This document shows positions 12,028-23,131 of a DNA stretch of 64,000 nucleotides, in pieces. The notes under the pieces were generated by a model. That model was not told the origin of the DNA. It worked only from the letters and a program-made list of their open reading frames with translations, and searched no databases. The position numbers and the translations under genes are program-made. Position 1 is the first letter of the stretch. Each line of letters opens with the position of its first letter. Source of the DNA: Halohasta salina (GTDB lineage Archaea; Halobacteriota; Halobacteria; Halobacteriales; Haloferacaceae); assembly GCF_024178165.1 (NCBI RefSeq), contig NZ_JAMZIE010000003.1:62001-126000 (forward strand). The letters run 5' to 3'.

Positions 12028-12819
12028 TCAGTCGCCGGCTGCGGCGGCCGCGCCCTCGGCCGACGGTTCGGGTGCGCTCGTATCACCGAAGATGGCGCGG
12101 CTACGGAGCAACAGTAGCCCGAAGCCGACCTTCGCGCTCACGTCGAGGATCATGAACAGCAGGGTCTCGACGCTGAGCGGAATCGCGCCGACGCCTTCGG
12201 TCCCGAACAGCCAGACCACGGGGTAGGCCGACCAGAGAATGATCGTCAGATTCCGCAGGACGCGGAACGTTGAGCCGACGTCTTCCCGCATCGCCGCGGC
12301 TTTGCGAGTGAAGCCGAAGAACAGCACGTACAGGATGTACAGCATCGCTGCGGTGCTGATGGCCCACCAGACGAACCGGTACTCGTAGACCTCGGTCAGC
12401 GCGCCGATCAGGCCGGTGACGATCATGATGCCGTCAGCGCCAACGAGCCCGATGATCGTGCCGCGGTCGGCGTCGACCAACAGCGCCAGGTCGAGCAACA
12501 GCAGCGGCGTGGTGAACAGCCAGTCGGCGTACCGGGCCCAGTAGATGTCCAACATCTGCCCGGCGACCTCGACCTCGGTGAGGCCGAACCCGAGCAGCAT
12601 TGCGAGGTACATCGTGAACGCGATAGCCGGGATCAGCGTCGTGATCGCGTAGAACTTCTTGGCACTGGGATCTTCGACACCCATGGCGCGTGCCATGAAG
12701 TACAGCGTCCCGAGTCCCATCAGTGCCGTCCCAAGGGCGAGCCAGATCCACTCCGGCCGCGCCGTTATTTCTCCGAACTGGAGTACGACACTTGCCGCCG
12801 TTGGTGTGAGTCCCGACAT
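12028..12819 (-). CDS. bop: bacteriorhodopsin (light-driven proton pump)
   Basis: 263 aa with seven transmembrane helices. All pump residues of Halobacterium bacteriorhodopsin have counterparts: R96 (R82), D99 (D85), T103 (T89), D110 (D96), D129 (D115), E209 (E194), E219 (E204), D226 (D212) and the retinal lysine K230 (K216) in LDVSAKVGFG. The DTD triad marks an outward proton pump. The N-terminal extension is short and the C-terminal tail is Ala-rich and acidic. A Bat-type activating sequence lies 40 nt upstream of the ATG. It faces the brp-crtI-bat genes and will use the retinal they make. Confidence 0.97.
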   Translation of the reverse strand: MSGLTPTAASVVLQFGEITARPEWIWLALGTALMGLGTLYFMARAMGVEDPSAKKFYAITTLIPAIAFTMYLAMLLGFGLTEVEVAGQMLDIYWARYADWLFTTPLLLLDLALLVDADRGTIIGLVGADGIMIVTGLIGALTEVYEYRFVWWAISTAAMLYILYVLFFGFTRKAAAMREDVGSTFRVLRNLTIILWSAYPVVWLFGTEGVGAIPLSVETLLFMILDVSAKVGFGLLLLRSRAIFGDTSAPEPSAEGAAAAAGD

Positions 12820-12858: not shown

Positions 12859-12873
12859 CCCAAACAGTACGGT
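12859..12873 (-). promoter_or_regulatory. Bat-type upstream activating sequence of bop
   Basis: Read on the minus strand it is ACCGTACTGTTTGGG, which fits the described Halobacterium UAS ACCcnactagTTnGG at all strictly conserved positions. Its near end is 40 nt from the bop ATG. Confidence 0.72.
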
Positions 12874-13044: not shown

Positions 13045-13227
13045 TCACCACTCGAAGAGGACGAAAAACTCGTGGTCGTTGTGACACGTGAGCTGACGGG
13101 CCTTCTGTCGCGGTCCACTCGTGTCGGGGCGGTCGGCTGCAGTCACCGACTTCACGACCGACTCCTTCGGAAGTCCCATCCGAACGTCCGCCCCACACTG
13201 CGGGCACTGGAGCTCCGTGATTCCCAC
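13045..13227 (-). CDS. brz: Brz-like small zinc-finger regulator of bop
   Basis: 60 aa from a GTG codon. It has CPQC at residues 8-11 and CHNDH near the C-terminus (residues 48-52), enough ligands for one zinc, and ends FFVLFEW. In Halobacterium salinarum a protein of this size and kind in the bop-brp intergenic region (Brz) regulates bop and crtB1. The identical position here, between bop and brp, is the main reason for the name; sequence identity was not checked by alignment. TATA-like AATATTTAA lies about 25 nt upstream. It is divergent to brp. Confidence 0.75.
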   Translation of the reverse strand: MGITELQCPQCGADVRMGLPKESVVKSVTAADRPDTSGPRQKARQLTCHNDHEFFVLFEW

Positions 13228-13282: not shown

Positions 13283-13297
13283 ACCCCACTAATTTGG
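13283..13297 (+). promoter_or_regulatory. Bat-type upstream activating sequence of brp
   Basis: ACCCCACTAATTTGG is an almost ideal match to the Bat UAS consensus. Its near end is 38 nt before the ATG at 13335, and TTTTTAAT (13302-13309), the TATA element, lies between. Confidence 0.8.
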
Positions 13298-13334
13298 ACT
13301 GTTTTTAATTCTCCGTCCGCTCCCATTGACAACC

Positions 13335-14405
13335 ATGAACACCGAGCGTTATCGCGGACTCCGAGCGGTGGTTCGCCCGTCGACCGGTGGGATTTCGCTG
13401 ACCGTCTCGCGGGTGGTGATGATCGGGCTCACGGTCGGCTTCCTCATCGGCCGACTGGCCGGCCTGCGGGTTCCGCTGACCACGCAGGCGGGGATCTACC
13501 TGTTGGGGATGGTCGCGATGAACCTCCCCCACGGCGGCTACGAGCATTTCGCCAACCTCCGGCGGCGGGCGGCGGCGTTTCAGGGTCGGTACATCGTGAC
13601 CTACCTGCTCGGGATCGGGCTGTTCGTCGGGCTGTTCTTCCTCTCGCCGGTGGCGGGGCTGATCCTCGCGGTCGGCGTCGCCATGGCCAAAGGCGGGTTC
13701 GGCGACGTCCACGTCGTTGAGGCGCTGTACGGCACCGACCACATCCGCTCGCGGCCCCAGCGCTGGCTGGCGGCGGCGGTCCGTGGCGGCGCCGTGATGA
13801 TCGTGCCGATGGTGTTCTGGCCGGAGACGTTCTACGCGTTCAGCGACATCATGGTGAGCATCTTCGATCCCGCCGCGATGATCGGCTTCGCCGAGTTCCA
13901 ACAGCGCAGCCTGCTGGCCGGTGGCGGCTACGCCGCGCTGGTGGCCGCCCATCTCGGCGTCGGCTACTGGTATGTGACGGGGTCGGGCTCGTTTATCGCT
14001 GACGCCGCCGAGTCGCTGCTGTTGGTCGCCTACTTCGCGGCAGTGCCGGTCGTCATCGCCGTCGGGCTCTACTTCCCGCTGTGGTACTCCGCCCGGCAGG
14101 TCGCCCGCACGACCGCCGTCGACGACCGGCTCGACGCCGAGGCCGACGGCCTCCTTTCCGGGCTCGAATCCGACGATCCCGAGCGGGTCGCGCTGGTCTC
14201 GTGGGGCGTGTTGATCGCCGGCAGCATCGCCACCTTCGGGCTGGCGGCCGCGCTGTGGGTGTGGTCACCACAGCCCCTCGGCGGGGCCGACCTGTTGTCC
14301 GGACTGGTGGCGTTCTGGAGCGTCTTCATCAGCATCATCGCGCTGCCCCACGTCGTCGTCGGCGCGTGGCTCGACCGCGAGCGAGGGATCTGGTACGTGC
14401 CGTGA
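13335..14405 (+). CDS. brp: beta-carotene 15,15'-dioxygenase, Brp/Blh family
   Basis: 356 aa multi-helix membrane protein. The conserved iron-ligand histidines of the Brp/Blh family are visible in NLPHGGYEH (about residues 57-65), KGGFGDVHVVEALYGTDH, AAHLGVGYW and ALPHVVVGAW. The family cleaves beta-carotene into two retinals, the chromophore of the opsins here. ATG 13335 is chosen over an upstream in-frame TTG because it gives the same spacing to the UAS as in bop. It is the first gene of a brp-crtI-bat run. Confidence 0.93.
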   Translation: MNTERYRGLRAVVRPSTGGISLTVSRVVMIGLTVGFLIGRLAGLRVPLTTQAGIYLLGMVAMNLPHGGYEHFANLRRRAAAFQGRYIVTYLLGIGLFVGLFFLSPVAGLILAVGVAMAKGGFGDVHVVEALYGTDHIRSRPQRWLAAAVRGGAVMIVPMVFWPETFYAFSDIMVSIFDPAAMIGFAEFQQRSLLAGGGYAALVAAHLGVGYWYVTGSGSFIADAAESLLLVAYFAAVPVVIAVGLYFPLWYSARQVARTTAVDDRLDAEADGLLSGLESDDPERVALVSWGVLIAGSIATFGLAAALWVWSPQPLGGADLLSGLVAFWSVFISIIALPHVVVGAWLDRERGIWYVP

Positions 14406-14463: not shown

Positions 14464-15984
14464 ATGAGAGACGGCACCCCACACCACGACGAGACCGTGA
14501 CGGTCGTCGGCGGCGGGATCGCGGGCCTGTCGGCGGCCTGTTATCTCGCTGACGCGGGCGCGACCGTCACGGTCGTCGAACAGAACGACCAACTCGGCGG
14601 CGTCACCGGTCGACTCGAAGCCGAGGGGTTCAGCTTCGACACCGGCCCCTCGTGGTACATGATGCCCGAGACCTTCGAGCGGTTCTTCGGCCACTTCGGC
14701 CGGTCGCCGGGCGACTACTACGACCTCGAACGACTCGACCCCCAGTACCGGGTGTTCTTCAAGGACGGCGACCGCCTCGATATCACCCCCGACCTCGACC
14801 GCACCCGCCGGCTCTTCGAGTCCTACGAGGAGGGGGCTGCCGCCGCCCTCGACGAGTATCTGGCGAGCGCCCGGCGGACCTTCGAGATCGGGATGGACCG
14901 GTTCGTCTACACCGACCGCTCGCGGCTGCGGGACCTCGTGGATCCCGAGATAATTCAGGCAGCCCCGGCGCTGAAGCATCTCGGCTCGATGCAGTCGTTC
15001 GTCGAAGGCTACTTCGAGCATCCGAAACTCCAGCAACTGCTCCAGTACACGCTGGTGTTCCTCGGGGGGTCGCCTCACGACACCCCCTCGCTGTACCACC
15101 TCATGGCCCACGTCGACTTCGAGCACGGCGTCTACTACCCCGAGGGCGGCATGTACAGCCTCGTCGAGGCGCTGGTCTCCCTTGGCCGGGAGTTAGGCGT
15201 CGACTACCGTACTGGGGAAGCGGTGACCGCGCTCGAACCGGTCGCCGATGGGATTCGAGTCGACAGCGATGCGGGGAGCCACGTCGCCGACAGCGTCGTC
15301 GCCAACGCCAACCCGGCCCACGTCGAGCGGGAGTTGCTCCCGGCCGACCGGGGTCGGGACCCAGCCTACTGGGACGAGCAGACCTACGGCCCCTCGGCGT
15401 TCATGCTGTATCTCGGCGTCGAGGGCGACGTCGACCCGCTGGCCCACCACAGCCTCGTGTTCCCCGACGACTGGGACCCTCATTTCGACCGGATCTTCGA
15501 GGAGCCGGGGTGGCCCGAGGACCCGGCCTACTACCTCTCGGTGACCTCGAAGACCGACGACTCGGTCGCCCCCGATGGCCACCACGCGGTCGTCGTCCTC
15601 GTCCCGATCGCGCCGGGACTCGACGACGACCCCGATCGGCAGGCGTCGTTCCGTGATGCGGTGTTGGCCGACCTCGCCGCCCGGATCGGCGTCGACCTGC
15701 GCGGTCGGATCGTCGTCGAGCGGTCGGCGTCGGTCTCGACGTTTGCCGACCGGTTCAACACCCCCGGCGGCACCGCCCTCGGGCTGGCCCACACCCTCGA
15801 TCAGACCGGCCCGCTACGCCCCGCCCATCACGCGCCGGGCGTCGAGGACCTCTACTACGCGGGGGCGTTTACCTCACCGGGCGTCGGCCTGCCGATGGCG
15901 ATCATCAGCGGCGAACACGCCGCTGCGGCGGTTGCTCGCGGGGTCGACCCCTCGCCGTTCGCCGATTTCGCCCCAAATCTATAG
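14464..15984 (+). CDS. crtI: phytoene desaturase CrtI
   Basis: 506 aa FAD-dependent oxidoreductase. The dinucleotide fold VTVVGGGIAGLSAACYLA sits at about residues 12-29, followed by GPSWYMMPE and the C-terminal CrtI signature DLYYAGAFTSPGVGLPMAIISGE. It desaturates phytoene toward lycopene, the precursor for CrtY and then Brp. It starts 58 nt after brp and ends 23 nt before bat, so the three are probably one transcript from the brp promoter. Confidence 0.93.
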   Translation: MRDGTPHHDETVTVVGGGIAGLSAACYLADAGATVTVVEQNDQLGGVTGRLEAEGFSFDTGPSWYMMPETFERFFGHFGRSPGDYYDLERLDPQYRVFFKDGDRLDITPDLDRTRRLFESYEEGAAAALDEYLASARRTFEIGMDRFVYTDRSRLRDLVDPEIIQAAPALKHLGSMQSFVEGYFEHPKLQQLLQYTLVFLGGSPHDTPSLYHLMAHVDFEHGVYYPEGGMYSLVEALVSLGRELGVDYRTGEAVTALEPVADGIRVDSDAGSHVADSVVANANPAHVERELLPADRGRDPAYWDEQTYGPSAFMLYLGVEGDVDPLAHHSLVFPDDWDPHFDRIFEEPGWPEDPAYYLSVTSKTDDSVAPDGHHAVVVLVPIAPGLDDDPDRQASFRDAVLADLAARIGVDLRGRIVVERSASVSTFADRFNTPGGTALGLAHTLDQTGPLRPAHHAPGVEDLYYAGAFTSPGVGLPMAIISGEHAAAAVARGVDPSPFADFAPNL

Positions 15985-16007
15985 TGGTATCAGGCCGAAG
16001 ATCTATC

Positions 16008-17990
16008 ATGTCGAGTGATTCTCCGGCGATCAAGGTGCTCTTCGCGGGCGAAGCGCTCCCCGAGGGGCCGACTGCGGCGGATCTCGCGGCCGACGACCGG
16101 TTCGTAGTCAGCCGGTCGCGGGACTTCCTCGATGCCCGCGACCACGCCACCGACACGCCCGTCGACTGCGTCGTCGCTACCCACTGTGAGGCGGGGTTCG
16201 ACGGAGTGGCCTTTCTCGAAGCCGTCCGTTCGGTCGACGCCGACCTCCCGGTCGTGGTGCTGGCGTCGTCGGTCGACGCGGAGTTGACCCGCCGGCTGGT
16301 CGCCGCCGACGCCAGCGCTTTCGTCGTGGCCGCGGCGGCCGACGCCCACGAGGCGGTCGTCGAGGCCATCGAAGCACACGTCGACGCCGCCCGCAAGCGG
16401 AGCGATCGGCTGCCCATCTCGGACCTCTCGGTCGAGGCCGAGCGCCGACTGAAGGAGCGTGCTCTCGACGAGGCCCCGATCGGGATCACCATCGCCGACG
16501 CGACGGCCCCCGACATCCCGTCGATCTACATGAACGCCGCCTTCGAGGACGTGACGGGCTACCCGCCGGCCGAAGCCGTCGGCGTCAACCACCGCTTTCT
16601 GCAGGGTCCCGAAACCGACCACGAGCAGTCGGCCGAACTCGCCGCGGGGATCGACGCCGAACGCGACACCGAGGTCGTTTTGCGGAACTACCGGCGCGAC
16701 GGGACGCCCTTCTGGAACCAGGTCCGGGTCAGCCCCATCTACGACGACGACGGCGAGGTCTCTCACTACGTCGGTTTTCAGATGGACGTCACCGACCGCG
16801 AGCGCGCCCAGCGAGAACTCCGGGCCGAACGCGAGTCGCTGAACCGACTGCTCGATCGGGTCGAGGGGTTGTTGAACGACGTCACCGATCTGCTGGTCCG
16901 GGGGGAGTCCCGGACCGAGACCGAGCGGCTGTTGGTCGAGCGGGCCGCCGAGACCTACCTCGCGGCGTGGCTCGGCCGCTACGATGCGGCCGACGAGCGG
17001 CTCACCGTCTCCCAACAGGCCGGCGACCGGGTCGTCGACGCCGATCCGATCGCCCTCGACGCCGACGACCCGGCCCTCGAACCTCTCCAGGAAGCCGTCG
17101 CAGACACCGAACCCCAGGTCGTCACCGAGGACGACCGGCTCCACGATCTCGCCGCCGACGAGGTCTGTGTGCTCGTCCCGCTGGCCTACCGCTCGACGAC
17201 CTACGGGGTGTTGGGTATCGTCGCCCACGCGGACAGCTTCGACGACCGCGAGCGGGTGTTGCTCGGCTCGCTGGGCCGGAGCGTCGGCACCTCGATCAAC
17301 TACACGCTGACCAAACGGACGATCACGACCGACACCGTGCTCACCATCGGGGTCGAACTGTTCGACGACGACCTGTTTTTCGTCCAACTCGCGGCGGCTC
17401 TGGACCTCCAGTTCGACTACGAGACGATCGTCTCCAACGAGCGGGACCCCGGGGTGCTCGCGCTGGTCAGCACCCAGTGTGCGGACGCCGACGCCGTCGT
17501 CGACCGCGCCGTGGAGTACGACGGTGTCGCGGCCGCCGAGGTGATCGCCGACACCGACGACCGGGCGGTCCTCCAGTTCCGGCTGACCGACTCGCCGCTG
17601 GTCGACGTGCTCGCGGAGTTCGGGAGCCGGCTGACCGAACTCCACGCCGACAGCAACCGGCTGGCCGTGGAGTTCTGTGTCGGCACCGAGGAGGCCGCCC
17701 AGTCGGTGCTGGGGGCCCTCCGGGAGACCTACGACCGCGTCGACCTCGTGGCCTACCACGAGAGCGATCCCCAACAGACCTCCTCGGGGTTCCGCGAGGA
17801 GCTACGGAGCCAACTGACCGACCGCCAGCTCACCGCCCTGAAAAAGGCCTACGTCAGCGGCTACTTCGAGTGGCCCCGCCGCGTCGAGGGCAAACAGCTC
17901 GCCGCGTCGATGGACATCGTCCCCTCGACGTACCACCAGCACCTCCAGTCGGCCAAACGGAAGCTCGTTGCGGCCTTCTTCGACGAGTAG
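16008..17990 (+). CDS. bat: bacterio-opsin activator Bat
   Basis: 660 aa from the ATG at 16008. The layout is: pseudo-receiver (about 5-125, no phosphoacceptor Asp), PAS/LOV-like domain (about 148-265), GAF domain (about 290-440), bacterio-opsin-activator domain, and C-terminal HTH_10 (LTDRQLTALKKAYVSGYFEWPR and STYHQHLQSAKRKLVAAFF). This is the Bat architecture, the activator that binds the UAS of bop and carotenoid genes under low oxygen and light. In the LOV-like motif the photoactive cysteine of NCRFLQ is replaced: here it reads NHRFLQ with H195, while the flavin-contact segments NYRRDGTPFWN and YVGFQMDVT remain. It overlaps nothing and meets the SRPBCC gene tail to tail. Confidence 0.92.
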   Translation: MSSDSPAIKVLFAGEALPEGPTAADLAADDRFVVSRSRDFLDARDHATDTPVDCVVATHCEAGFDGVAFLEAVRSVDADLPVVVLASSVDAELTRRLVAADASAFVVAAAADAHEAVVEAIEAHVDAARKRSDRLPISDLSVEAERRLKERALDEAPIGITIADATAPDIPSIYMNAAFEDVTGYPPAEAVGVNHRFLQGPETDHEQSAELAAGIDAERDTEVVLRNYRRDGTPFWNQVRVSPIYDDDGEVSHYVGFQMDVTDRERAQRELRAERESLNRLLDRVEGLLNDVTDLLVRGESRTETERLLVERAAETYLAAWLGRYDAADERLTVSQQAGDRVVDADPIALDADDPALEPLQEAVADTEPQVVTEDDRLHDLAADEVCVLVPLAYRSTTYGVLGIVAHADSFDDRERVLLGSLGRSVGTSINYTLTKRTITTDTVLTIGVELFDDDLFFVQLAAALDLQFDYETIVSNERDPGVLALVSTQCADADAVVDRAVEYDGVAAAEVIADTDDRAVLQFRLTDSPLVDVLAEFGSRLTELHADSNRLAVEFCVGTEEAAQSVLGALRETYDRVDLVAYHESDPQQTSSGFREELRSQLTDRQLTALKKAYVSGYFEWPRRVEGKQLAASMDIVPSTYHQHLQSAKRKLVAAFFDE

Positions 17991-18506: not shown

Positions 18507-18552
18507 CGCTGTTTTGGGTGCTCGGCCCGTTTGTCTCCCTACCAACGCCCCT

Positions 18553-20622
18553 ATGACGACTCGACTCACCCTCGCCGACCCCGACCGCAACGGCCTGTCG
18601 GTGAGCACCGACGCCGTCCGGCTCTCCCCCGGTGCCCGGCGCGCAGTTGGCGCCGACGTCGGCGATCCGGTCGCCGTCGAGGGCGGCGCGCGAACCGTCG
18701 CCGTCGTCGGCGACGACGCCCCCCAACTGCCGGACGGCGTGGTTCTCGCCGGCGATACCGTCCGCCGGAACGCCGAGTCGACCGTCGGCGCGTCGGTGAC
18801 CGTCGCGGCCGTCGAGCCGGTCGCCGCCCGATCGGTGACCGTCGCCCCGACCAATTCGGTCTCGCTTTCGGGCGACAGCGAGGCCCTCTCGCGGGCGCTG
18901 GCGGGCCGCCCCCTCTCGGTCGGCGACCGTATCGGCGTCGACCTCTTCGGCGGCAGCCTCGACGTCCGGCTGACGGTCGTCGACCTCGACCCCGACGGCC
19001 CGGCTGTCGTCACCGACGAGACGACCGTCTCGATCCGCCCGGCCGACCCCACGGGGGTCGACGGGGCGGTCCCGGCGGTCCCTCCCGACGGGGTTGGCGG
19101 TCTCGACGAGCCACGGGCGGCCCTCCAGCGGCTGGTCGCCCGGCCGCTGGCGGATCCCGAGGGGTACGCCGCCGTCGGTGCGCGACCGCCCGCGGGGGTA
19201 CTGCTCGCCGGCCCCTCCGGGGTGGGGAAGACGCGGCTCCTCGGCGCGGTCGCGGCCGACGCCGGGCTCCCGATTCACGAGGTCCCGCCGAACGACTGCG
19301 GGAGCCGGGAGTCGCTGGCGGCTGTCCTCCGGGCGGCCGACGACGACGCCCCAGCGATCCTCCTGATCGAGCGCCTCGAAACGGTCGCCCCTTCCTCCGA
19401 CGAGGGAGCCTCCTCGGCGGTCGCGTGGCTGCTCGATCGGGTCCGCGACCGCGATGACCTCGTGGTCGTCGGCGAGGCTTCCAGCGCCGACGCGGTCGAC
19501 CCCGCGTTGCGTCGCGGCGGCCGTTTCGACAGCGAGGTTCGGGTCGATGTCCCCGACCGGGCGGCCCGCCGCGAGGTGTTGGCGGTCCACGCTGCCGACC
19601 TTCCATTGGCTGACGACGCCGACCTCGACTGGCTGGCGGCCCGCACCCACGGCTACACCGGCGCGGACCTCGAAGCCGTGGTGGTCGAGGCCGCGACGCG
19701 GGCGGTCGACCGGGCCGGCGACGGGCCGGCGACGGTCGGCCGCGCGGAGTTCGATGCGGCCGTCGAGGCGGTCGGTCCGTCGGCGCTCCGCGAGACGGTG
19801 GTCGAACGCCCGTCGGTCTCCTACGAGGAGATCGGCGGCCTCGATGAGGCGATCGAGACGGTCGTCCGGACCGTCGAGTGGCCGCTCCGCTACCCCGAAC
19901 TCTTCGAGCGACTCTCCATTACGCCGCCGACCGGCGTCCTGCTGTCGGGGCCGCCGGGCACTGGCAAGACGCTGCTGGCGAAGGCGGTCGCCACCTCCAC
20001 GGCGGCGAACTTCCTGTCGGTCGACGGCCCCGAGTTGATGAACCGCTACGTCGGCGAGAGCGAACGCGGCGTCCGGGAGCTGTTCGACCGGGCCCGACGC
20101 AGCGCTCCCGCGGTCGTCTTCCTCGACGAGCTGGACGCGCTGGCCCCCGCCCGTGGCTCGACCGACACGGGTGCCGCCGAGCGGGTCGTCTCCCAGCTGT
20201 TGACCGAACTCGACGGTCTGTCGGCCCGCGGCGAGGTGGCGGTGCTCGCGGCGACCAACCGACCCGACGCGATCGATCCGGCGTTGTTGCGCCCCGGCCG
20301 CATCGAGAGACAGGTCGCCGTGCCGCTGCCCGACCGGGCGGCCCGCCGGGAGATCCTCGCCATCCACCTCGCCGACGTCCCGACCGCCGGCGTCGACCTC
20401 GATGCGCTGGCCGCCGCGACCGCCGGCTACACCGGCAGTGATCTCGCGGGCGTCGTCCGCGAGGCCGGCCTGCTGGCGATGGGCGAGGCCCTCGGCACCG
20501 ACCGCCCGACGGCTGCCACCGACGAGCCGGTCGTCGAACACCGCCACCTCCGGGCGGCAGTGGAGGCGAGCCGGCCGTCGGTCGACGACCGCGCCGACGA
20601 CTTCGAGTGGCAGGATCCCTGA
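18553..20622 (+). CDS. CDC48/VAT-like double AAA ATPase with a degenerate first ATPase domain
   Basis: 689 aa. The N-terminal double-psi barrel-like region (about 1-165) is that of CDC48. D1 (about 180-400) keeps Walker A (GPSGVGKT, 220-227), but Walker B reads ILLIERLE instead of the usual IDE, so both acidic residues are altered at E273-R274, and sensor 1 reads VVVGEASS, not GATN. D2 (about 425-620) is intact: [35 protein letters not shown]. So D1 probably binds but does not hydrolyse ATP. CDC48 proteins unfold proteins for the proteasome. Its place in the opsin island and the UAS-like element suggest an opsin-linked quality-control role, which is inference. Confidence 0.87.
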
Positions 20623-20709: not shown

Positions 20710-20877
20710 ATGGATCGAGACACCCTCGTTTTCGCCGTTCACCTCGTCGTCGCCCTCGGGTTGGCGACGTTCGGTGCCTACCGGATCTCCCTCGGTGCAC
20801 CCGTCGCTGGCGGGCTCAACATCGTGATGGCGGCCGCGATCGTCGCCGTCGGTCGCTACGTCAGTCGGCTCGCCTGA
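20710..20877 (+). CDS. two-helix mini membrane protein, unknown
   Basis: 55 aa, with two hydrophobic helices (LVFAVHLVVALGLATFGAYR and GGLNIVMAAAIVAVGRYVS) joined by a short loop. The start ATG is at 20710. It follows the AAA gene by 87 nt, and its last 22 nt overlap the 3' end of the opsin gene on the other strand. No family is recognised. Candidate roles are opsin-associated small subunit or unrelated; neither is shown by sequence. Confidence 0.6.
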   Translation: MDRDTLVFAVHLVVALGLATFGAYRISLGAPVAGGLNIVMAAAIVAVGRYVSRLA

Positions 20878-21629
20878 TCGCCCGCTCCCGGTGCCGGCGC
20901 CGCCCCCCGGTCGGAAACCGCCGGGCTCCGGAGCAACACGAGCGCGAAGCCGATCGTCGCCAGCAGATCGAGGGCGACGAACCCCGCCGTCGCGGCCGTC
21001 GGCGACACCACGCCCGCGCCACCGGGACCGGCAATCCACCACAGCGGATAGCCAACCCAGCAGACGCCGAGCAGCGTCGCCAGCCTGTCGACGGTCGCGG
21101 TCGTCTCGGTAGCGAGGCCGCGCGTATCGGCGCGTAGCCCCACGCCGAGGAAGTAGCCGACGCCGCCCACAGCCAGCGTGGCGATCCCCACCCAGACGTA
21201 CCGGTAGCCCCCCAGCACCGGTCCCGTCGACACGATCCCCGTGACGACCACGAAGACGGTGGTGGCGACCGCACTCGCCAGCGTTTCCCGGTCGACCCCC
21301 GCGACCGAGCCGAGGGCAGCTACTAGCAGCGGCATCGTCACCAGCCAGTCGACGTACCGCGCCCAGTAGAGGGTCACCGCCTCCCCATCGGGTACGGCCA
21401 CGTCGACGGTTCCGACGCCGGACAGCAACAGGGCGTATGCCCCGACGCTGGTCGCCGAGACGACGGCCACGAGCGCGTGGCTCCGCCTGGTTCGGCGGTC
21501 CTCGCTGCCCGCCGCGCGCGCTGCCACGAGCAGCGACGCGAGGCCGAACACCACCGCGCCGCCGACGAGCCAGCCCGCTGCCGGTCGACCGCCGAGCGTC
21601 GCCCCGACTGCTGCCAGTAGTGCCCCCAT
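20856..21629 (-). CDS. microbial opsin homologue lacking the retinal-binding lysine
   Basis: 257 aa, seven helices, clearly related to bop. Conserved with bacteriorhodopsin are R91 (R82), D94 (D85), W95 (W86), T98 (T89), W191 (W182), Y194-P195 (Y185-P186), W198 (W189) and D221 (D212) in YWARYVDWLVTMP, WVGYP and ALDLLATIGFAL. The helix G lysine (K216) is T225, codon ACG, one base from AAG. D96 is A105, and the E194/E204 release group is absent. It cannot form the normal Schiff base, so it is not a standard pump. The frame is open and codon use matches its neighbours, and a good Bat UAS sits 39 nt upstream, so it looks functional rather than decaying. Possible roles: non-covalent chromophore carrier, partner of Bop, or chaperone. 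Confidence 0.9.
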   Translation of the reverse strand: MGALLAAVGATLGGRPAAGWLVGGAVVFGLASLLVAARAAGSEDRRTRRSHALVAVVSATSVGAYALLLSGVGTVDVAVPDGEAVTLYWARYVDWLVTMPLLVAALGSVAGVDRETLASAVATTVFVVVTGIVSTGPVLGGYRYVWVGIATLAVGGVGYFLGVGLRADTRGLATETTATVDRLATLLGVCWVGYPLWWIAGPGGAGVVSPTAATAGFVALDLLATIGFALVLLRSPAVSDRGAAPAPGAGDQASRLT

Positions 21630-21667: not shown

Positions 21668-21682
21668 CCAAACTCATGGGGT
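21668..21682 (-). promoter_or_regulatory. Bat-type upstream activating sequence of the lysine-less opsin
   Basis: Read on the minus strand it is ACCCCATGAGTTTGG, fitting ACC-N7-TT-N-GG exactly. Its near end is 39 nt from the start codon, the same geometry as bop (40) and brp (38). Confidence 0.72.
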
Positions 21683-21836
21683 TGGTTTTAGTCGTCGACC
21701 GCTCTGTGCCGTCCCGTTCACGCCGGCCCGACGCCTGCCACGGGGGCGGCGAACCGCTGGTCATCAGTCACGGGCCCTGTGAGGGCGAACTAGCTGGGGT
21801 CGGCATTGATACCCCCGAAGAAACGTATCACTGGCT

Positions 21837-22169
21837 ATGACTGACGAGGACACGTCGACCGACGCCGACACTAAAACCGACACCGACGCCGACACCGATG
21901 CCGAGACGGCCGAGGACGTCGTCGTCGACCTCGACTCGGCGGCGGCCTACGACCAACGCGTCGACGAACTTCAGGAGACCGTCGAACAGCAGGCCGAGCG
22001 GATCGACGAACTGGAGGACCTCCTGTTGGACCTCTCGGTCCGGGCGGCCGACGACCGCGGGATGGGGGTCTGTCCGGAGTGTCACGGCCCCGTCGAGAAA
22101 GTTCGCCGATGGTTCGGCCCGACGACCATCGAGTGTCGTCGCTGCGGGGAGACCTTCCACGAGTACTAA
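21837..22169 (+). CDS. coiled-coil zinc-ribbon protein, unknown
   Basis: 110 aa. The first 30 residues are a DTDAD-type acidic repeat. About 40-65 is a predicted coiled coil (VDELQETVEQQAERIDELED). The C-terminus is a zinc ribbon with CPECH and CRRCG. This pattern suggests a small oligomeric nucleic-acid or protein-binding factor. It sits between the lysine-less opsin (divergent) and crtY (same strand, 134 nt downstream). A ten-codon-range spacing to crtY is not seen, so crtY may have its own promoter. Confidence 0.65.
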   Translation: MTDEDTSTDADTKTDTDADTDAETAEDVVVDLDSAAAYDQRVDELQETVEQQAERIDELEDLLLDLSVRAADDRGMGVCPECHGPVEKVRRWFGPTTIECRRCGETFHEY

Positions 22170-22303: not shown

Positions 22304-23131
22304 GTGTCCGTGATCGACCTCTCCCAGCTGGTCGCGGCCGTCTCCGGGACGTATCTCGCCTACCTCGCGGCCACCGTCGGCGTCCCGCTGGTCGTCCTTG
22401 GCGCGGCCGCGTGGGGCCGTGGCAGCCTCGGGACTTGGGTCGACGCGCTGGGGGTCGTCGCACTCATGGCGATCGCCTTTTCGTACACCTACGTCTGGGA
22501 TGGCACCCTCATCGAGCAGGGTGTCTGGTGGTATGGCGAGGGGGTCGTAACCGGGCGCGTCTGGGTTATCCCGTTCGGCGAACTCGCCTTCTTCCTCGTC
22601 CAGACCGCCCTTGCCGGCGTCTGGCTCCTGTTCCTCGACCCCTCGGTCGACCCCGACCGACCCACGACCGTCCGGTCCCGACCGGCCGGCCTCCTCGCCG
22701 TCGCCGCCCTCGAACTCGCGGGGTTCGGGCTGTACGTTACCACTGCCGGCCACTATCTCGGGGCGGTCCTCGTGTGGGGCGCGCCGATCCTCGGCTTCCT
22801 GTGGTTTCTCGGCGGCCCCGTCATCTGGCGGGTACGCCGTACCGTCGCGGCCGCCATCGTAGTCCCCACGGTCTATCTCTGGGTCGTCGACCGCCTCGCT
22901 ATCGGGCTCGGTCTCTGGTCGATCTCGTCGACCCACACCACCGGTCTCGCGGTCGCCGGCCTCCCGATCGAGGAGATGGTATTTTTCCTCGTGACGAACA
23001 CGCTCGTCGTCTTCGGGCTGACACTCTACCTGTGGGTCGTCGCCCGCACCGAGCGGCGGTCACTGGCCGCGAGCCTGCGTGGGCTACTGCCCCGCGGCGG
23101 TGTCGGCACACCGCCTGCCGGCCGGGAGTAG
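22304..23131 (+). CDS. crtY: lycopene beta-cyclase, CrtYcd-fusion type
   Basis: 275 aa membrane protein with seven hydrophobic helices. It shows the two homologous halves of heterodimeric-type cyclases, each with its signature: PFGELAFFLVQT (about residues 89-100) and PIEEMVFFLVTNTLV (about 225-239). It cyclises lycopene to beta-carotene, the substrate of Brp. Start is GTG at 22304 directly after an in-frame TGA; a second GTG at 22310 is possible. It closes the retinal pathway of the island; phytoene synthase (crtB) is not in the window. Confidence 0.92.
   Translation: MSVIDLSQLVAAVSGTYLAYLAATVGVPLVVLGAAAWGRGSLGTWVDALGVVALMAIAFSYTYVWDGTLIEQGVWWYGEGVVTGRVWVIPFGELAFFLVQTALAGVWLLFLDPSVDPDRPTTVRSRPAGLLAVAALELAGFGLYVTTAGHYLGAVLVWGAPILGFLWFLGGPVIWRVRRTVAAAIVVPTVYLWVVDRLAIGLGLWSISSTHTTGLAVAGLPIEEMVFFLVTNTLVVFGLTLYLWVVARTERRSLAASLRGLLPRGGVGTPPAGRE

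Follow-up and report, generated by a model that had tools for sequence, protein, structure and literature searches.

The retinal-synthesis and bacteriorhodopsin cluster of Halohasta salina contains, in addition to canonical bop, a second bacteriorhodopsin-like opsin gene (here op2), whose product carries threonine in place of the retinal-binding lysine of helix G. Its syntenic orthologues, all of them in Haloplanus, still have the lysine and share a conserved Bat-type promoter box with it, and the Halohasta copy has changed faster than they have. On balance, we lean towards reading it as a Bat-controlled second opsin that has lost covalent retinal binding and is degenerating under weakened constraint, covered by the six lysine-bearing opsins of the same genome. 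Here a haloarchaeal opsin has independently lost the retinal lysine while its orthologues in a related genus, at the corresponding locus, retain it; the two states form a natural before-and-after comparison and allow losses to be read directly against retentions (counterion set, tryptophan pocket and Bat box).

The cluster and its second opsin

The window, that is, the whole stretch of 64,000 nt that was analysed, holds the genes and sites listed in Table 1, and the locus is a cluster for retinal synthesis and bacteriorhodopsin. The initial annotation had assigned op2 to this retinal island, with an intact frame over 257 codons and a Bat-type box of its own, all of which is borne out, the box being conserved in five of five op2 orthologues. 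It had also placed the gene next to bop, which is right as regards the cluster, although bop lies 8 kb away. The DUF7533 gene is kept in all eight clusters examined, whether op2 is present or absent, and the CDC48-like AAA ATPase is constant in the bop clusters of relatives (63–66% identity). We know of no role for this ATPase in retinal or bacteriorhodopsin biology.

Table 1. Genes and sites of the cluster, in window positions
Feature	Position	Strand	Remarks
bop (bacterioopsin), canonical, with Lys	12028..12819	-	groups with Halobacterium bop in the tree
bop box ACCGTACTGTTTGG	12860..12873	-	starts 54 nt upstream of the bop start codon
brz, zinc-ribbon regulator of bop	13045..13227	-	NCBIfam equivalog NF041795, E 5.6e-31
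Bat-type box ACCCCACTAATTTG	13283..13296	+	upstream of brp; one mismatch to the consensus used
brp/blh, beta-carotene 15,15'-dioxygenase (retinal synthesis)	13326..14405	+	
CrtI-like FAD amine oxidase/desaturase	14464..15984	+	family name by context
bat, PAS-GAF-BAT-HTH_10 activator of bop	15984..17990	+	
CDC48-like AAA ATPase	18541..20622	+	start uncertain; conserved cluster member
DUF7533 membrane protein	20710..20877	+	55 aa; tail-to-tail with op2, 22 bp overlap at the op2 3' end
op2, lysine-less opsin	20856..21629	-	257 aa; seven-helix bacteriorhodopsin fold
ACG codon, Thr225 at the Lys216 position of bacteriorhodopsin	20955..20957	-	sequence and alignments
Bat-type box ACCCCATGAGTTTG of op2	21669..21682	-	starts 53 nt upstream of the start codon
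Zinc-ribbon-like protein	21837..22169	+	divergent from op2; conserved neighbour
Lycopene cyclase (CarR/CrtY type)	22304..23131	+	

The op2 product belongs to the type 1 (microbial) rhodopsins by its match to Pfam Bac_rhodopsin (PF01036, E=1.4e-36, residues 20–235), by an AlphaFold2 model with seven helices (pTM 0.74), and by Foldseek, which returns archaerhodopsin-2 as the top match (E 3e-13). Its nearest solved relatives are archaerhodopsin-2 and bacteriorhodopsin, at about 34% identity. Read on the minus strand from 21629 to 20856, the frame runs through to its stop codon with no internal stop, and GC per codon position is gene-like (0.75/0.59/0.87). For a gene this rich in GC, the probability of remaining stop-free after 60 neutral amino-acid changes is about 0.2; the open frame is therefore weak evidence, and we rejected it as proof of selection.

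Alignment confirms the residues that had been read from the sequence at the outset. The ACG codon, in the context GCG-ACG-ATC, puts threonine at K216, where a retinal-binding rhodopsin has its Schiff-base lysine, and R82, D85, W86, T89, W182, Y185, P186, W189 and D212 of bacteriorhodopsin are kept, as are Y57 and G122. Further departures from bacteriorhodopsin are T90M, D115T, M118V, W138V, S141A, E204A and D96A, together with the absence of E194. The protein thus has in common with bacteriorhodopsin and archaerhodopsin the fold, about one third of its residues, R82/D85/D212, W86, W182, Y185, W189 and a Bat-type box, whereas it differs from them in lacking Lys216, D96 and E194/E204 and in its altered ring-side pocket. 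The genome encodes seven opsins, and the six others, bop included, have lysine at 216. An apparent eighth (L008), with two stops, was discarded as a chance match.

Lysine-bearing orthologues and a shared promoter box

Across 170 genomes of the family and 392 of the order, four syntenic op2 orthologues were found, all in Haloplanus and all with lysine (L009 in genome G075, L010 in G072, L011 in G076, and L012 in G071, which matches to both of its plasmids at 100% identify as Haloplanus sp. HW8-1); a second lysine-less orthologue was not found in these genomes. Scores drop from 354 bits for the orthologues to 267 bits for the next-best matches, gene order is identical at all five op2 loci, and the clade of the Halohasta copy and the four Haloplanus genes is supported by 100/100 and 99/100 in two trees, so that the lysine-less opsin is a member of op2 by monophyly and synteny alike. 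Because the four orthologues in this fully supported clade all have lysine, the loss is best placed on the Halohasta lineage, and the simplest history would be that Lys216 was lost once, there; one genome of the lineage is sampled, and the long branch leaves its exact position within the clade uncertain. The suggestion in the initial annotation that threonine at this site might define a clade was therefore not supported.

The Halohasta and Haloplanus genes belong to one clade, lie in identical gene order at one locus and have the promoter box in common; aligned over their length, the proteins are 39–43% identical, and both are without D96 and E194. The Haloplanus proteins differ in having Lys216, E204, D115, T90 and W138, in evolving more slowly, and in that their changes avoid conserved sites. 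No op2-like match exists in the three other genomes of the genus of Halohasta salina. In three relatives (G070, G017 and G007) the AAA, DUF7533 and zinc-ribbon genes are present and op2 is absent, and a search of these op2-free clusters for remnants found none. A scan of GTDB contigs with the lysine-less protein returned only three distant bacterial opsins, while plasmid searches gave one bacteriorhodopsin match of 34% and, at the DNA level, nothing that matched the cluster.

The core of the op2 box, CCCATSAGTTTGG, is common to five of five op2 promoters and stands out from diverged flanks. The op2 boxes begin 51–54 nt upstream of the start codon, as the bop box does. We take the op2 box to be a counterpart of the Bat-dependent upstream activating sequence of bop, from the literature on that element and from its likeness to the boxes of bop and brp. 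Sites with up to 3 mismatches number 46 across the 64,000-nt window, where 31 are expected, so the weight of the op2 box lies in its conservation and position and not in matching the motif as such. Within the cluster, the brp box comes closest to the consensus. A second box-like site at 21786–21799 on the minus strand, with an AGCTAGT core, has a counterpart in three of four Haloplanus orthologues, 147–173 nt upstream of op2, and may serve the divergent zinc-ribbon gene.

Rate and pattern of change

The terminal branch of the lysine-less op2 is 3.51, as against 0.08–1.25 for the Haloplanus orthologues and 0.13 for Halohasta bop, although its length varies with the model and the rows included (1.95 in a 40-row tree). 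Identity between Halohasta and Haloplanus is 0.40 for op2, compared with 0.53 within Haloplanus; for eight neighbouring genes the corresponding values are 0.59–0.81 and 0.68–0.90, and most of them differ little between the two comparisons (e.g., 0.65 and 0.68 for the AAA ATPase). Under a codon model (GY94, F3x4, fixed topology) in which synonymous sites are near saturation, so that omega values are rough, omega on the lysine-less branch is 0.28 vs 0.135 in the background, a borderline rise (2dlnL 3.8, p ~0.05), and omega=1 is rejected on that branch (2dlnL 15.3). The eight neighbours have omega of 0.03–0.11 on the Halohasta branch. Among them only bop shows a rise (from 0.036 to 0.073, 2dlnL 4.1), and for this reason a doubling of omega is not in itself unique to op2.

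The lysine-less op2 has lost 13 of the 39 positions that do not vary among 26 relatives (A53S, M60L, T90M, L94V, D115T, M118V, I119V, W138V, S141A, L149G, E204A, K216T and G220A), whereas every other sequence has lost between 0 and 5. W138V, D115T and L149G need at least two base changes each, so that the divergence did not come from one recent event. When change is set against conservation, the AUC is 0.53–0.60 for the lysine-less op2, with an interval touching 0.5, and 0.72 and 0.78 for lysine-bearing orthologues; such near-random placement of changes looks like weakened constraint. Losses are not enriched in the retinal pocket relative to elsewhere among the 39 invariant sites (14/21 kept vs 12/18, p=1). 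On the other hand, the Halohasta copy keeps 13 of the 15 universal opsin sites, defined by at least 97% conservation in 59 lysine-bearing BR, HR, SRI, SRII and op2 sequences, having lost only T90 and K216, and it keeps these more often than the other op2-invariant sites (Fisher p=0.04).

The initial annotation had regarded its proposal of a functional lysine-less opsin as untenable if close relatives had lysine at this site while the Halohasta copy showed relaxed selection. Relatives do have the lysine, and relaxation is largely evident in the longer branch, the roughly twofold omega, the 13 lost sites and the near-random changes. It is not complete, however, as the retinal core and the promoter box are kept and the dN/dS comparison that had been called for, borderline in its rise, nevertheless excludes omega=1.

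Proposed degeneration and its alternatives

In the reading that we favour, op2 is a second, Bat-controlled opsin of the bacteriorhodopsin type that some Haloferacaceae carry in their bop cluster, flanked by the DUF7533 and zinc-ribbon genes. The Halohasta orthologue has lost Lys216 along with several ring-side and proton-release residues. Because loss of the lysine abolishes the Schiff base, no Schiff-base pigment would form, and neither light-driven pumping nor canonical photoreception is to be expected of the protein. The product is most likely still made, presumably as an apo-opsin with seven helices whose expression Bat controls, with constraint that appears clearly weakened and still present, and its job would be covered by the six lysine-bearing opsins. 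That op2 is probably dispensable is suggested by the three relatives that have the cluster without it; this dispensability, the single occurrence of the lysine-less state and the six intact opsins that remain are what favour degeneration. Against plain decay stand the rejection of omega=1, the 13 of 15 universal sites, the conserved box and the three lost sites that took two or more base changes each.

Taken together, the relaxed placement of changes, an omega under 1 and the intact core fit a degenerating paralogue or a retained retinal-free partner alike. Such a partner would be an apo-opsin co-expressed with Bop, joining or regulating Bop oligomers or aiding folding, a role speculated for bacterial Rh-noK in tandem with proteorhodopsin (PMC10308929; PMC7714340). 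We consider this possible, yet doubtful. Its box type and start spacing match those of bop, omega is below 1 on its branch, fold and hydropathy are retained, and the bacterial Rh-noK offer a precedent in arrangement. However, the lysine-bearing Haloplanus op2 genes have the box as well, so it does not mark a lysine-less role in particular, the changes look relaxed by site pattern, no second lysine-less orthologue occurs in the genomes searched, and three relatives live without op2. The composite proposal, in which Bat co-induces a lysine-less apo-opsin that either acts together with Bop or, its pocket core being intact, keeps retinal or a carotenoid bound without a covalent link, strikes us as rather unlikely. 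Taken alone, non-covalent binding of retinal or a carotenoid in the kept core, as a carrier or a light-modulated protein, is improbable: the counterion set R82/D85/D212 is intact, as are W86, W182, Y185, P186, W189, Y57 and G122, and the gene lies among retinal-synthesis genes, but ring-side residues are lost (T90M, M118V, W138V and S141A), and haloarchaeal opsin-related proteins (ORPs), when expressed, yielded no visible pigment in the presence of retinal (Becker et al., 2016, PMC4915679), although erosion of the pocket has gone further in them.

The ORPs themselves bear on another claim. The initial annotation had limited lysine-less rhodopsins to a few bacteria and fungi, whereas 48 of 170 haloarchaeal opsins, nearly 30%, are ORPs without the lysine; they form a clade near the sensory rhodopsins, have arginine or a hydrophobic residue at 216 and an eroded pocket, lose the Y185/W189 equivalents, and often, though not universally, adjoin transducers (PMC4915679). 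Lysine loss and a haloarchaeal host are shared with the Halohasta protein, which would allow it to be an ORP that senses without retinal and signals through a taxis transducer; we judge this very improbable. The tree places it with op2 and the bacteriorhodopsins, and a single clade with ORP-like sequences is rejected (AU p=0.0004) for a set of three, fetched with PF01036 and with arginine at 216 by eye, two of them near-identical and one distant. It keeps both Y185 and W189, and no HAMP/MCP transducer is among the identified genes from bop to lycopene cyclase. Used as a query, the Halohasta protein retrieved no ORPs, and every opsin that it did retrieve has lysine. A sequencing or assembly error at the ACG codon is hardly credible: no result points to one, the protein is genuinely divergent, with changes at twelve further invariant sites of which several took two base changes, and a chance error at precisely this codon would be unlikely.

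Lysine-less opsins are also known outside the haloarchaea. In bacteria, Rh-noK genes stand next to those for a functional rhodopsin and for retinal synthesis, and returning the lysine to one of them restored pigment and pumping (Yamauchi, 2019, as cited in PMC10308929 and PMC7714340). The Halohasta protein resembles them both in lacking the lysine and in this gene neighbourhood, and the descriptive label of a rhodopsin-like protein without the retinal lysine fits it; they differ in being bacterial, related to xanthorhodopsin and the outcome of a separate loss. In freshwater FArhodopsins, too, a pump paralogue has lost the lysine, with threonine among the replacements, but these are bacterial and flotillin-linked, and lysine is absent in most of the freshwater group (PMC10308929). 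With ORPs, Rh-noK and FArhodopsins already on record, the lysine-less op2 is a further independent lysine-less opsin and not a new kind.

If the Halohasta protein were functional with Bop, it would provide a testable role for lysine-less opsins in genetically accessible organisms. The lysine-bearing op2 subclade would be a better study target than the lysine-less copy, and our literature search for a second Haloplanus opsin or this subclade found no description. From what is established for bacteriorhodopsin, the op2 group, being without D96 and E194, would be expected to pump protons slowly or not at all even where the lysine is present. In the four Haloplanus proteins D96 is replaced by G, A or V and E194 is missing, while D85, R82 and E204 are kept. 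The copy in G076 carries A215T in addition, which is found in a phototaxis-signalling mutant of bacteriorhodopsin (3t45).
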